Under the pieces are notes generated by a model. It was not told where the DNA came from. It saw only the letters and a program-made list of their open reading frames with translations, and did not search any database. Below are positions 25,499 through 32,871 of a stretch of 64,000 nt of DNA, piece by piece; position 1 is the first letter of the stretch, and each line of letters opens with the position of its first letter. Source of the stretch: Acidimicrobiales bacterium (lineage in GTDB: Bacteria; Actinomycetota; Acidimicrobiia; Acidimicrobiales; DATDAH01); the NCBI GenBank assembly GCA_016794585.1, contig JAEUJM010000001.1, positions 62,001 through 126,000 of the forward strand, read 5' to 3'. A program made the translations under genes and the position numbers.

Positions 25499-25804
25499 AT
25501 GTCCCCCGCCGACGCGACCGACGCCGCCGACGAGTCCTTCGAGGCCCACTTCCGGCTGCTGCTCGAGCGGGCCGCGGCCCGTCCCGAGGGTTCGTCCACC
25601 GTCGCCGCCCTCGACGCGGGCGTCCACGAGATCGGCAAGAAGGTGCTCGAGGAGGCCGGCGAGGTGTGGCTCGCGGCCGAGCAGGGCGGGCGTGACGACC
25701 TCGCCGAGGAGATGAGCCAGCTCGTCTACTGGCTCCAGGTGCTCATGGTCCACGCCGGCATCGGCCCCGACGAGGTGATCGGCTACCTGTACCGCCCCCG
25801 CTGA
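25499..25804 (+). CDS. hisE: Phosphoribosyl-ATP pyrophosphatase
   Basis: ATG 25499 gives 101 residues, normal for stand-alone His[21 protein letters not shown] and [20 protein letters not shown] followed by [16 protein letters not shown] form the MazG-like, Mg-binding helical bundle (E-E-x-x-E and E-x-x-Q patterns). It hydrolyses phosphoribosyl-ATP to phosphoribosyl-AMP, the second step of histidine synthesis. It is the first gene of a block containing tRNA-His, hisS, hisZ and hisG, with 80 bases to the tRNA. The usual PR-AMP cyclohydrolase partner hisI is not in the window. Confidence 0.92.
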
Positions 25805-25884: not shown

Positions 25885-25958
25885 GCTGCCGTAGCTCAGT
25901 TGGCCAGAGCGCCTGGTTGTGGACCAGGAGGTCATGGGTTCAAGCCCCATCGGCAGTA
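25885..25958 (+). tRNA. tRNA-His (GTG anticodon), atypical acceptor: G1:U72, A73, no G-1
   Basis: A complete cloverleaf folds. Acceptor GCTGCCG (25885-25891) pairs with CGGCAGT (25951-25957), leaving a G1:U72 wobble; discriminator A is at 25958. The D arm is GCTC/GAGC, the anticodon stem CCTGG/CCAGG with loop TTGTGGA and anticodon GTG (25919-25921), the variable loop has 5 bases, and the T stem is ATGGG/CCCAT with TTCAAGC. CCA is not encoded. In most bacteria tRNA-His carries an extra G-1 paired to C73; here the base before G1 is C and position 73 is A. This combination is known from Alphaproteobacteria with a divergent HisRS. The matching synthetase gene begins 50 bases downstream. Confidence 0.95.
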
Positions 25959-26008: not shown

Positions 26009-27490
26009 GTGTCCACCGATCGCCCCAGCGCCCGCCTCCCGAGCGGTTTCGCCGACGCGCGGGCGGACGACGTCCTGGCCCGCCAGGCCCTCATCGAGCA
26101 GGTCGTGGGCGTCTACCGCCTCCACGGCTTCGAGGCCCTCGAGACGCCGGCCATCGAGTACCTCGACGCGCTGGGCAAGCACCTGCCCGACGAGGACGCG
26201 CCCGACGAGGGCGTGTTCGCGCTCCGGGACGACGACGAGCAGTGGATCGCCCTCCGCTACGACCTCACCGCGCCCCTCGCCCGGTTCGTGGCCCAGGCGG
26301 GCCAGCACCTCGTCCGCCCCTTCCGCCGCTACCAGGTCGGCCCGGTGTGGCGTCGGGAGAAGCCGGGCCCGGGGCGCTTCCGCCAGTTCTACCAGTGCGA
26401 CTTCGACACCGTTGGCAGCGCCTCGGTGGGCGTCGACGCCGAGGTCTGCGCCGTGCTGGCCGCTGCCCTCGAGGCCATCGGCATCGACCGCGGCGACTAC
26501 ATCGTGCGGGTCAACGACCGGCGCGTCCTGACCGGCGTCCTGCACGAGGCCGGCATCAGCGACGCCCGGGCCCAGCTCACCGTCCTGCGGGCGGTCGACA
26601 AGCTCGACCGCCTCGGCCTCGACGCCGTCGCCGAGCTGCTCGGCGAGGGCCGGACCGACGCCTCGGGCGACCGCACCCAGGGCGCCGGCCTCGACCCCGC
26701 CCAGGTCGACGCCGTCCTCGGGTTCGTCCGCGCCGGCGGCGGCACCCGCGCCGACGTGATCGGCCGACTCGGCGAGCTGGTGGGCGGCGACGAGGTGGGC
26801 CGGGCCGGCGTCGACGAGCTCGCCCGCATGGCCGAGCTGCTCGACGCCAGCGGCCTCGGCGACGACCGGGTGGTGTTCGACCCCACCGTCGTGCGCGGCC
26901 TCGCCTACTACACCGGTCCGGTGTTCGAGGCCGAGCTCACCGCCGAGATCGTCGACGAGAAGGGCCGCAAGCGCAGCTTCGGCTCGGTCGCCGGCGGCGG
27001 GCGCTACGACGACCTCGTCGAACGCTTCACGGGCGAGCGGGTACCGGCGTGCGGGGCCAGTATCGGCGTCGACCGCCTCCTGGCCGCCCTCCGGGCGCTG
27101 CACGGCGAGCAGGCCGCCCCCCGGGGCCCCGTCGTCGTCACCGTGATGGACCGCGACCGCCTCGGCGCCTACCAGGCCATGGTCGCCGAGCTGAGGGCGG
27201 CCGGCATCGCCGCCGAGCTCTACCCGGATGAGCGCTCGTTCAAGGCGCAGATGAAGTACGCCGACCGTCGCCGGTCGCCCGTCGCCGTCATCGCCGGCGG
27301 CCAGGAGTTCGAGGCCGGCGAGGTGCAGGTGAAGGACCTCGTCCTCGGCGAGGAGCTGGCCAAGGGCATCGCCGACCGCGACGAGTGGCGCACCGGGCAG
27401 CCCGCCCAGCGCTCGGTGCCCCGTGCCGACCTCGTGGCCACCGTGGCCGAGATCCTCGGCCGCCCCGCTCCCGGCGGGCAGGGGAGCTGA
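26009..27490 (+). CDS. hisS: Histidyl-tRNA synthetase, divergent alphaproteobacterial type
   Basis: GTG 26009 gives 493 residues; earlier in-frame codons would run into the tRNA. The class II core begins [20 protein letters not shown]. Motif 1 is near [20 protein letters not shown]. Motif 2 reads [20 protein letters not shown] (~113-132), followed by [13 protein letters not shown]. Ordinary bacterial HisRS instead has ERPQxGRxRQFxQ. [11 protein letters not shown] and DTVGSASV are the pattern I know from alphaproteobacterial HisRS that reads tRNA-His without G-1. Motif 3 region is [15 protein letters not shown] and [14 protein letters not shown]. The C-terminal anticodon-binding domain ([20 protein letters not shown] to the end) is intact. 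It is co-directional with its tRNA and with hisZ, 2 bases downstream. Confidence 0.95.
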
Positions 27491-27492
27491 CC

Positions 27493-28719
27493 ATGGCCGA
27501 CACGCAGCCCGTCTCGGGCGCCTTCGACCTCGCCGAGGAGCAGGCCGTCCGGGCCGAGGCGCTCGCCGAGGCCTCCCGGGCCTGGTTCCGCTCGCAGGGC
27601 TACGGCCCGGTGAAGCCGCCCATCCTCGAGCGCGCCGCGCCCTTCCTCGACCGCCTCGGCGAGGAGATCCGCAGCCGCATGTACATCTTCGCCGACCCGG
27701 GCGGCCACGAGGTCTGCCTTCGGCCCGAGATGACCATCCCCACGGCGCGTCTCTACGCCGACAGCATCCACGAGCGCGGTGGCCCGTTCCGCTGCTACTA
27801 CGTCGGCAGCGTCTTCCGCTTCGACTGGCCCCGCGAAGGGCGGTACCGCCAGTTCACCCAGACCGGCGCCGAGTTCTTCGGAGGCGTCGATGCCGCCGAC
27901 GCCGATGCCGAGGTGCTGGCCCTGGCCCACGGGCTGCTGGGGTCCTACGGCCTGTCCGACCTGCAGGTGCAAGTGGGTGACGTGTCCTTCTTCGCCGCCC
28001 TGCTCGGCGACGAGCGTCTGGCCCCGGCGTGGCGCGTGCGCCTGGCGCGGGCGGCGCCGGACTTCGCCACCCTCGAGCGCGAGCTGGCCCAGGACGCCGA
28101 GCGTCGGGCCGCCACCCCGGTTGCCGCGGACACGTCCACCGCACCGAGCCCCGCCGCCGGCAGTGAGATCGGCGACCTGCTCGACCAGACGCCGGCCGCC
28201 CAGCGTGACGCGCTGCTCGGCCACGTCCTCACCACGGTCGGCCCCGAGCACTTCGGGGTGCGCACGCCCGAGCAGATCGCCCGACGCCTGCTCAACCGGG
28301 CCGAGGCCCGCGGTCCCATCGAGCCCGCCATCGCCGGCGCCCTCACGGCGCTCCTCGCCATCGACCTGCCTCTGCACGAGGGCCTCGCCGAGGTGCGCCG
28401 CATCGCCGACGAGGCCGGGTCGGCCGCGCTGGCGGCCGCCGCCGACGGGTGGGATCGCCGGGTCGCGCTGCTGGCCGAGCGTGGTGTCGACCCCGCCGGC
28501 GTCCGCCTCCGCCCCCGCATGGGCCGCGGCATCCACTACTACACCGGCTTCGTGTTCGAGATCCACGACGGCACCGGTTCCGCCGAGAGCCAGCTGTGCG
28601 GCGGCGGGCGCTACGACGACCTCGTCGAGTCCGTGGGCGGCACCGAGCCCGTCCCCGCGGTCGGCTTCTCCCTCGGCCTCGAGCGGGTCCAGCTCCGGTT
28701 GGGCCAGGAGGCACCGTGA
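27493..28719 (+). CDS. hisZ: ATP phosphoribosyltransferase regulatory subunit
   Basis: ATG 27493 gives 408 residues and lies two bases after the hisS stop. It is a HisRS catalytic-core paralogue without the anticodon-binding domain: FRSQGYGPVKPPILERAAPF, LRPEMTIPTARLYAD, RFDWPREGRYRQFTQTGAEF, GRGIHYYTGFVFEIHDG and [14 protein letters not shown]. HisZ binds HisG and supplies histidine feedback inhibition. Its stop overlaps the hisG start as GTGA. The hisS-hisZ-hisG order is one I associate with Alphaproteobacteria; this is recollection, not a search. Confidence 0.93.
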   Translation: MADTQPVSGAFDLAEEQAVRAEALAEASRAWFRSQGYGPVKPPILERAAPFLDRLGEEIRSRMYIFADPGGHEVCLRPEMTIPTARLYADSIHERGGPFRCYYVGSVFRFDWPREGRYRQFTQTGAEFFGGVDAADADAEVLALAHGLLGSYGLSDLQVQVGDVSFFAALLGDERLAPAWRVRLARAAPDFATLERELAQDAERRAATPVAADTSTAPSPAAGSEIGDLLDQTPAAQRDALLGHVLTTVGPEHFGVRTPEQIARRLLNRAEARGPIEPAIAGALTALLAIDLPLHEGLAEVRRIADEAGSAALAAAADGWDRRVALLAERGVDPAGVRLRPRMGRGIHYYTGFVFEIHDGTGSAESQLCGGGRYDDLVESVGGTEPVPAVGFSLGLERVQLRLGQEAP

Positions 28720-29708
28720 CCGCGTCCGACACGCTCGTCCTGACCGTCGTGGCGAAGGGCTCGCTGCACGACGGCACCCTCGACCTGCTCGACCGGTGCT
28801 TCCTCCCCATCAAGCGTGGCGGCCGGTCGTACGCGGCACGCATGCCGGGGCTGCCCGCGGTCGAGGTGCTGCTGTCGCGGGCCGACGAGATCCCCGAGCT
28901 GATCGCGTCCGGGCAGGCCCACGCCGGCATCACGGGCCTGGACCTGGTGAGCGAGGCCAACGGCGAGCCCGGCACGCGACCCCGTGTCAGCGTCGTCATC
29001 GAGGACCTGCGCTTCGGCCGGGCCGACCTCGTGCTCGGCGTGCCCGCGGTGTGGCTGGACGTCGCCACCCTCGACGACCTCATCGAGGTGGCCTCCGACA
29101 TCCGCCACGACCACGGTCGGGTGCTGCGGGTGGCCACCAAGTTCCCCAACCTCACGCGGGCCTACTTCGCCCGGGCAGGCTTCACCGACTTCCGCATCGT
29201 CCCGTCCCTCGGCGCCACCGAGGGGGCGCCCAAGGCGGGCACCGCCGACGTGATCGTGGACCTCACCTCCACGGGGACCACCCTCGACGCCAACGGTCTG
29301 AAGCAGATCGACGGCGGGCGCGCCCTGCGGTCACAAGCGTGCCTGGTGGGTGCCGGCGATCCGACGGTGTGGACCCCGGGACGGCGCCAGGCCTTCACCC
29401 AGGTGATCGACCTGATCGAGTCCGCCCTCGCCGCCGACGAGACCCGGGTCGTGCGGGCCCACTTCGCCGACGCCCCCGAGGGCGCGCCGGTGCGAGCGGC
29501 CCTCGACTCGGTCCTCCTCGACCACGCCTGGATCGAGGCCGATCACGGCACCGAGCTCGACGGGCACCTCGCGGTCACCGACGTGCACGAGGTGCTGCGC
29601 CTCCTCCGGGCCCACGGCGCCGAGAACGCGGTCATCGAGGCCGTCGACCTGATGGTGCGTCCCACGCACCACTACGCCGAGGCCTTCTTCAACTCCCTCG
29701 AAGGCTGA
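28716..29708 (+). CDS. hisG: ATP phosphoribosyltransferase catalytic subunit
   Basis: GTG 28716 follows CCAGGAGG and gives 330 residues, longer than the usual short HisG (~210). VVAKGSLHDGTLDLLDR is the start of the periplasmic-binding-like fold. FGRADLVLGVPAVWLDVATL, RVATKFPNLTRAYFARAGF and SLGATEGAPKAGTADVIVDL (PRPP-binding region) follow. The length and these segments resemble alphaproteobacterial HisG (~325 residues), which works with HisZ. The enzyme condenses ATP and PRPP, the first step of histidine synthesis. It ends the block; a GC-rich hairpin follows. Confidence 0.94.
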   Translation: MTASDTLVLTVVAKGSLHDGTLDLLDRCFLPIKRGGRSYAARMPGLPAVEVLLSRADEIPELIASGQAHAGITGLDLVSEANGEPGTRPRVSVVIEDLRFGRADLVLGVPAVWLDVATLDDLIEVASDIRHDHGRVLRVATKFPNLTRAYFARAGFTDFRIVPSLGATEGAPKAGTADVIVDLTSTGTTLDANGLKQIDGGRALRSQACLVGAGDPTVWTPGRRQAFTQVIDLIESALAADETRVVRAHFADAPEGAPVRAALDSVLLDHAWIEADHGTELDGHLAVTDVHEVLRLLRAHGAENAVIEAVDLMVRPTHHYAEAFFNSLEG

Positions 29709-30978: not shown

Positions 30979-32871
30979 TCAGAAGCGCCAGAGGCGGTCG
31001 CGGCGCTCCGGGTCGCCGTGGAAGATGATGTCGTCGCGGCCGTTGCCGTCGAAGTCGCCGCTGCGGGCGATGCCGAACGATCCGCCCATGTTCACTCCGG
31101 AGCCGAGGAACCCGCCGTTGGCGGTGCCCAGCCAGAAGGCGTCGCGGGCGTCGCCGCGGCCGTACCAGAAGATGTCCGTGCGCTGGTCGCCGTTGTAGTC
31201 CCCCGGCACGGCGACGGCGTCGTGATCGATGTCCACGGAGCGGGCGGAGAACCGGTTGCCGCTCTCGCCCCGCCACAGGGTGTCTCGGGCGCCGCCCGGG
31301 CCGTACCAGAAGATGTCGTCCCGGCCATCGCCGTTGAAGTCGCCGGCGAACGGCTGGTACGTGCCGTTGGCACGCTCGGTGCGGCCCACGAAGCGCCCGT
31401 AGATCGTGCCGTACCAGACGGGGTCCGAAGGGGCGCCGGCCCGGTACCAGAAGATGTCGTCGGACCGATCGCCGTTGAAGTCGCCCACGATCGGCCAGTA
31501 GTCGCCGTTGACGGTCACGTCGAGGTTGCGGAACGACCGGTTCGGCGTGCCCAGCCAGATGTGGTCCCGGGCGGTACCGGGCCCGTACCAGAAGATGTCG
31601 TCACGGCAGTCGCCGTTGAAGTCGCCGGTGAACACCCGGTAGTCGCCGCCGACGTTGCGGAGGTTGTCCGAGAAGCGGCCACCGCCGGCGGAGAACCAGA
31701 TGTGGTCCGTCTCCCCGCCCGGGCGGTACCAGAGGATGTCGTCACGCCCGTCGCCGTCGAAGTCACCCGTGTTGGTTCGGTCCCACGCCGGGTTCACGTC
31801 GATGCCCTGCACGTAGCGGCTCGAGGGCGAGAAGCGCGGCGCGTGGAAGACCCGCGACCAGTAGCTCACCCTGCCGGCGCCGCCGTCGCGGGTGAGGCTG
31901 AAGTGCACGTGATCGGTGTGGGGCGACGCCCCGGAGTACGGCGACCACCCCCGGTCGGTGTCGTACATGCGGAACATCTGGCGGTTCCAGATGATGTACA
32001 TGACCCCGAGGCGACGGGCGTTGGCGAACGTGTTGCAGTTGTTGTCGGTGGCGAAGAGGAAGTCGAACAGCGACTGCACCCGAGCCCGGTCGGAGGCGCG
32101 GCCGGCGTTCATCGCCCAGTCCCACGCCCGGCCCTCCTTGTGCTCGCTCGTCCCGCCGATGTTGCACGCCCGCCCCACGCCGAGGCTGCCGCCGCCGTAG
32201 TTGGCCTGTACGAGGCGCCGGAACGCAGCCATCCCGGGCTTCTCGCTCGTGCTGCACGTGGACTGGCCGTCGTAGTCGGGGAAGGGCTCGATGCCGCCGT
32301 TGAACGGGGGAGCGGTGGCGCCCTCGGTCGTGGCGTTCGGGCCTTCGCCGGTGACCGTGAACGTCCGCTTCGTGTACGTGACCGGGTCGGGCTCGTCCTC
32401 CTCGCTCGGGTAGGCGCACACCGCCTTGATCCGGTACGGGTCGACCGGCGTGCCGGCCGGCACGGTGAGCGTGCCCTCCCAACGGCCGTCGTCGCCGACC
32501 TCGATCGTGGCGTCGGCGAACACGGCGCCGTCGTGGACGAGGGTCACCACCACGCCGTCGCCGGGCTCGTCGGTGCCGGGCAAGAGGCAGTCGGCGCCTG
32601 AGACCTCGATGGCGGTGCCGGTGACGCCCTCGGCCGGGCTGCTGGAGAACCCCGGCCCGGCCTCGGGTGCGGCCTGCGCCTCGGGGACGGCCTGGGCCTC
32701 CGGGTCCTGAGTCTCCGGGTCCTGGGTCTCCGGGTCCGCTTGGCCCGTCACGGCGCCGGCGGGGATCAGCGGGACGGAGGCGGCCAGCAGCAACACCAGC
32801 AGGGGCAGGGCGACGGTGCTCGCTGAGGGGCCGAACCGCCCCCGGCGGGTCCGCCCCTCGATCGTGCGCAC
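30979..32871 (-). CDS. Secreted protein with LAS-peptidase-like domain and six FG-GAP repeats
   Basis: GTG 32871 follows AGGAGG and gives 630 residues. A signal peptide (VALPLLVLLLAASVPLIPAG) is followed by a degenerate repeat of PETQD/PEAQA and an Ig-like region (~70-170). The central domain (~215-345) contains SEHKEGRAWDWAMN and PHTDHVHFSL, an H-x6-D and HxxHxH arrangement typical of LAS-type zinc peptidases acting on cell-wall peptides. The C-terminal ~270 residues hold six FG-GAP/VCBS units of the form GDFNGDGRDDIFWYGPG, which bind Ca2+ through DxDGxxD and fold as a propeller. A wall-remodelling or adhesive enzyme is likely; substrate unknown. Confidence 0.82.
   Translation of the reverse strand: MRTIEGRTRRGRFGPSASTVALPLLVLLLAASVPLIPAGAVTGQADPETQDPETQDPEAQAVPEAQAAPEAGPGFSSSPAEGVTGTAIEVSGADCLLPGTDEPGDGVVVTLVHDGAVFADATIEVGDDGRWEGTLTVPAGTPVDPYRIKAVCAYPSEEDEPDPVTYTKRTFTVTGEGPNATTEGATAPPFNGGIEPFPDYDGQSTCSTSEKPGMAAFRRLVQANYGGGSLGVGRACNIGGTSEHKEGRAWDWAMNAGRASDRARVQSLFDFLFATDNNCNTFANARRLGVMYIIWNRQMFRMYDTDRGWSPYSGASPHTDHVHFSLTRDGGAGRVSYWSRVFHAPRFSPSSRYVQGIDVNPAWDRTNTGDFDGDGRDDILWYRPGGETDHIWFSAGGGRFSDNLRNVGGDYRVFTGDFNGDCRDDIFWYGPGTARDHIWLGTPNRSFRNLDVTVNGDYWPIVGDFNGDRSDDIFWYRAGAPSDPVWYGTIYGRFVGRTERANGTYQPFAGDFNGDGRDDIFWYGPGGARDTLWRGESGNRFSARSVDIDHDAVAVPGDYNGDQRTDIFWYGRGDARDAFWLGTANGGFLGSGVNMGGSFGIARSGDFDGNGRDDIIFHGDPERRDRLWRF

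Follow-up and report, generated by a model that had tools for sequence, protein, structure and literature searches.

A tRNA-His gene lacking G-1:C73 and a divergent histidyl-tRNA synthetase gene of the alphaproteobacterial type in an Acidimicrobiales genome

Introduction

The nucleotide G-1 of tRNA-His is among the most conserved features of tRNAs. A tRNA-His gene without it lies in a 64,000-nucleotide stretch (the window) from a bacterium of the order Acidimicrobiales (5.49 Mb in 51 contigs, 98.4% complete), and this locus raises the questions of how such a tRNA could serve as the histidine tRNA of the cell and how it came to be there. A first-pass annotation, made from the sequence of the window, described the tRNA as atypical. 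That description stands, but the type is already known from an alphaproteobacterial subgroup, and what was unexpected is its occurrence in Acidimicrobiales. According to PMC3937112, loss of G-1 together with A73 is regarded as having had a likely single origin in bacteria and has served as a marker in alphaproteobacterial phylogeny.

Structure of the tRNA-His gene

ARAGORN and the Rfam tRNA covariance model agreed with the first-pass annotation on the position of the gene (Table 1), and all 71 positions of the Rfam model were matched. As read from the sequence, the base encoded at position –1 is C (25884) and not G, the 73rd base is A (25958; the next letters are CTGA), and the acceptor helix (GCTGCCG/CGGCAGT) consists of a G1:U72 wobble and six Watson-Crick pairs, including C2:G71. 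The absence of G-1:C73, the A73, the U72 wobbling with G1 and the preceding C had all been described correctly. The first-pass annotation had proposed a comparison with a covariance model and with the tRNA-His genes of related genomes, and had named a mis-called acceptor end as a possible source of error. Such an error is ruled out, since the register is fixed by a T stem of 5 bp (AUGGG/CCCAU) and by homologs in the related genomes G108, G406 and G407. The acceptors of G108 and G406 are identical to that of the source genome; G407 has another acceptor helix (GCCGCGG/CCGCGGT), yet keeps G1:U72 and A73. Position 20a of the source tRNA is C. When the tRNA was folded as a single strand, the cloverleaf was not the minimum free energy structure.

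The 44 tRNAs of the source genome cover all 20 amino acids, and tRNA-His is present in one copy only. This gene does not encode CCA; because CCA is encoded by just 24 of the 44 tRNAs, its absence is uninformative, and we rejected it as a sign of foreign origin.

The histidyl-tRNA synthetase gene and its neighbors

The first-pass annotation was silent on a matching histidyl-tRNA synthetase (HisRS) gene located 50 bases downstream of the tRNA gene. This hisS encodes the sole full-length HisRS of the source genome, all further matches being to HisZ or, weakly, to parts of other proteins. The order on one strand is hisE, tRNA-His, hisS, hisZ, hisG.

Table 1. Features of the tRNA-His/hisS locus, in positions of the window
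Feature	Position	Strand	Evidence
hisE, phosphoribosyl-ATP diphosphatase (upstream neighbor)	25499..25804	+	NCBIfam NF001610, 117.2 bits, over cut-off
tRNA-His(GTG)	25885..25958	+	ARAGORN; Rfam RF00005, 69.7 bits; sequence read
hisS, histidyl-tRNA synthetase, alphaproteobacterial (G-1-independent) type	26009..27490	+	TIGR00442, 370.5 bits, over cut-off; tree; GTG start inferred
hisS motif-2 loop	26351..26386	+	Sequence comparison; Gly120 (26366-26368) at the canonical bacterial Gln site
hisZ, ATP phosphoribosyltransferase regulatory subunit	27493..28719	+	Best NCBIfam model of PRK12295 type; NF008953, 285.5 bits, below the curated cut-off of 384
hisG, ATP phosphoribosyltransferase	28716..29708	+	TIGR00070, 161 bits, over cut-off; start inferred

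The motif-2 loop of the source HisRS reads REKPGPGRF, with Gly at the site of the canonical bacterial Gln; canonical enzymes of the same order have, for example, RYEQPQSGRLRQHH (G408, G409) or RYERPQAGRYRQHH (G111, G415). According to PMC3937112, G-1:C73 is contacted by the Gln at this site, and Gly there is a derived state that marks the alphaproteobacterial RRCH clade (Rhodobacteraceae, Rhizobiales, Caulobacterales and Hyphomonadaceae), whose tRNA-His has A73 and lacks G-1. Histidine identity in Caulobacter crescentus resides in A73, U72 and the anticodon, as stated in PMC9976931, and the critical elements for the Consotaella HisRS are G1:U72 with A73 (PMC7590224).

Simple scans found no promoter-like or terminator-like sites between 25400 and 26200, and the spacing of tRNA-His and hisS suggests that the two may be co-transcribed. 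The tRNA gene lies directly upstream of hisS, at a distance of approximately 50-85 bases, in the source genome, G108, G406 and the distant bacterium ADurb.Bin236, and apart from hisS in G407 and in the alphaproteobacterial loci examined; the adjacency hints at a module that travels together. The order hisS-hisZ-hisG is shared by the source genome and many alphaproteobacterial loci, and G407 has hisS-hisZ; no hisZ was seen within 1.5 kb of hisS in G108 and G406. Farther along the window, a long secreted-looking protein is encoded on the minus strand (30979-32871), with repeated GDFNGDGRDDIFWYxPG units that resemble FG-GAP/VCBS repeats by eye.

Phylogeny and distribution of the synthetase

The source HisRS is about 28-30% identical to the canonical enzymes of a related family and 49-60% identical to alphaproteobacterial ones. 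We constructed a HisRS tree of 54 rows in which the motif-2 columns (about 10 of 500) were kept. Four Acidimicrobiales sequences formed a clade (support 100/100) on their own branch beside the alphaproteobacteria, a placement whose support (93/95) falls just below the starred threshold. The enclosing clade of 43 rows (95/98) also contained sequences from Planctomycetota, Zixibacteria, SKW228 and ADurb.Bin236, and the other Acidimicrobiia HisRS sampled fell outside it. The Acidimicrobiales sequences are not nested within the alphaproteobacteria, and the tree does not point to a donor or a direction of transfer.

High-similarity matches to this HisRS were confined to the source genome and G108 (69% identity) among 394 genomes of the class, and to the same two among 396 genomes of the phylum; the source genome is the sole genome sampled from its family. 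Of the 24 genomes in the family of G108, four belong to genus g22; three of these four (G108, G406 and G407) have the divergent HisRS, and it is absent from the fourth, G408, and from the other genomes of the family. G408 possesses a canonical enzyme and a canonical tRNA-His. In G407, an additional open reading frame (L224, C1:2893147-2894298) shares 43-48% identity with the canonical HisRS found in its family; the frame is still open, and the catalytic motifs (the R-E of motif 2 and LVRGLDYY) are gone. These features are as expected for a displaced canonical HisRS that has decayed, possibly into a protein with a new role.

We further scanned one genome per species using two short peptide patterns, a procedure that does not amount to a census. 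Among the best 80 of 168 relatives were ADurb.Bin236 with two near-identical metagenome-assembled genomes (MAGs), six Planctomycetota MAGs, one Zixibacteria MAG, bacterium SKW228, one Acidobacteria MAG and many alphaproteobacteria; many of the records are MAGs, a point against the reading given below. The pair is not restricted to alphaproteobacteria, as it is in PMC3937112, but occurs as well in Acidimicrobiales and Planctomycetota, in Zixibacteria and in two lineages that are unplaced. A literature search, with most subscription papers outside its reach, returned no report of the divergent pair in non-alphaproteobacterial bacteria, and we claim no priority.

Covariation of the tRNA end and the HisRS type

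We fetched tRNA-His genes from representative genomes and read their ends. G1:U72 and A73 were found in 17 of 17 genomes with a divergent-clade HisRS (the source genome, G108, G406, G407, ADurb.Bin236, SKW228, Zixibacteria, five Planctomycetota and five Proteobacteria records), and G-1, C72 and C73 in all 11 Acidimicrobiia without one, although the genomes of both sets are interrelated and the counts do not represent independent events. The sharpest individual contrast lies within one genus, between G408 and G407. The loop was EKPGPGR in 15 of the 17 divergent genomes and EKPEPGR in two planctomycetes. For the canonical Acidimicrobiia it was read in nine of the 11 (all but G002 and G171), with mostly Gln at the site and Ala in G155. 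The base at position –1 of the divergent tRNA-His varies among C, T, A and G, as would be predicted for a base that is cleaved off.

Three other observations emerged from these comparisons. The two planctomycete enzymes with EKPEPGR (L172 and L174) carry Glu in place of Gly, and their tRNA-His still has G1:U72 and A73. The A73 tRNA-His genes also share C2:G71 (17/17), where the canonical genes in the sample have U2:A71; C2:G71 may be a further identity element or reflect shared ancestry. Finally, the Acidobacteria MAG G420 combines a canonical tRNA-His with a canonical HisRS and a second HisRS, which has the loop EKTDVGRF and is related to the divergent clade; this second enzyme is either a paralog that serves another function or the result of a binning error.

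Origin of the pair

We consider that the tRNA-His and HisRS of the source genome form a divergent, G-1-independent pair of the Caulobacter kind, which arose by lateral replacement of HisRS together with a switch of tRNA identity (probability approximately 0.92). From established tRNA biology, RNase P would cut off C-1, so that the mature tRNA-His begins at G1, and the CCA-adding enzyme would supply CCA. By analogy with the tested alphaproteobacterial enzymes, HisRS would then charge this tRNA by means of A73, U72 and the GUG anticodon, reading it with a motif-2 loop in which Gly stands in place of the Gln that serves G-1:C73. In transplant tests by Yuan et al. in 2011, U20a reportedly aided the C. 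crescentus enzyme, and C20a in the source tRNA counts against this mechanism. As for the history, an ancestor of these few Acidimicrobiales would have gained HisRS laterally, in the order hisS-hisZ-hisG in the case of the source genome; the incoming enzyme would have ousted the resident one, and the resident identity rule would have switched along with it. The tRNA gene may have either arrived with HisRS or adapted in place: its body (positions 8-65) is 85% identical to canonical Acidimicrobiia tRNA-His and likewise 85% to the divergent planctomycete type, and these equal values favor neither co-transfer nor adaptation in place. The 5΄ end of the mature tRNA, its charging and the direction of transfer are what we infer.

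The similarity of the tRNA body is also compatible with a resident tRNA-His that drifted, together with its own HisRS, to the same rule by convergence and without gene transfer. Such a history is contradicted by the tree, in which the enzyme belongs to the divergent clade, by its lower identity to the canonical enzymes than to the alphaproteobacterial ones and by the decayed old enzyme retained in the relative G407, and we regard it as highly improbable. We give slightly more credence, though still very little, to an unrecognized enzyme that adds G-1 after transcription and yields a eukaryote-like G-1:A73 tRNA. The source HisRS is eukaryote-like overall, with human cytoplasmic HisRS among its best PDB matches, and eukaryotes do place G-1 opposite A73; the first-pass annotation had called such an addition unusual, but it is the eukaryotic rule (PMC6471195). 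It is nevertheless unlikely here, because a search for the Thg1 family (PF04446) gave no match in the source genome and was positive in the control, Methanosarcina acetivorans. In addition, alphaproteobacterial HisRS that carry this loop use tRNA lacking G-1 as their substrate (PMC9976931, PMC7590224).

That the gene is mis-called or non-functional, with the functional tRNA-His absent from the assembly, can hardly be credited: the assembly is fragmented and slightly incomplete, but the cloverleaf is intact with a strong score, the HisRS type matches, and the tRNA is conserved in three relatives, one of them a single-contig genome.

The presence of the pair in other phyla, mixed with canonical pairs inside one genus, suggests that the identity rule can move or switch, and weakens the A73/G-1-less identity as a phylogenetic marker. 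We tentatively propose, as an idea somewhat short of probable, that this identity is a portable tRNA-His and hisS module and not a one-time alphaproteobacterial invention, that it has taken the place of the canonical pair on several occasions, in different phyla and even within a single genus, and that the degenerate HisRS of G407 may have acquired another role. G408, compared with G407, G108 and G406, offers a natural before-and-after comparison for the replacement of an essential tRNA-synthetase rule, and the pairs found here are new candidates for orthogonal HisRS/tRNA pairs.

Comparison with known systems

The canonical bacterial HisRS/tRNA-His pair, used by the other Acidimicrobiia examined, has its function and cloverleaf in common with the pair described here, but the source tRNA-His lacks G-1, C72 and C73 and the HisRS loop differs. 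The Thg1-dependent tRNA-His of eukaryotes shares A73, whereas a Thg1 match is absent here. The tRNA-His of Trypanosoma and Acanthamoeba is also without G-1 and without a Thg1 that adds it, according to PMC9976931 and PMC4284800, and the protist enzymes bear no similarity to the bacterial ones (PMC4284800). The closest counterpart is the RRCH pair, for example that of C. crescentus, with which the present pair shares the lack of an encoded G-1, G1:U72, A73, Gly in the HisRS motif-2 loop, a HisRS identity of 49-60% and, in many cases, the order hisS-hisZ-hisG. It differs from the RRCH pair in its actinobacterial host, in the tRNA-His gene directly upstream of hisS, in C at position 20a and in a HisRS on its own branch. 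All sequence features of the alphaproteobacterial type that we tested are present, and the taxonomic restriction alone does not hold; what is new is where the pair occurs, that is, its distribution and not its mechanism.
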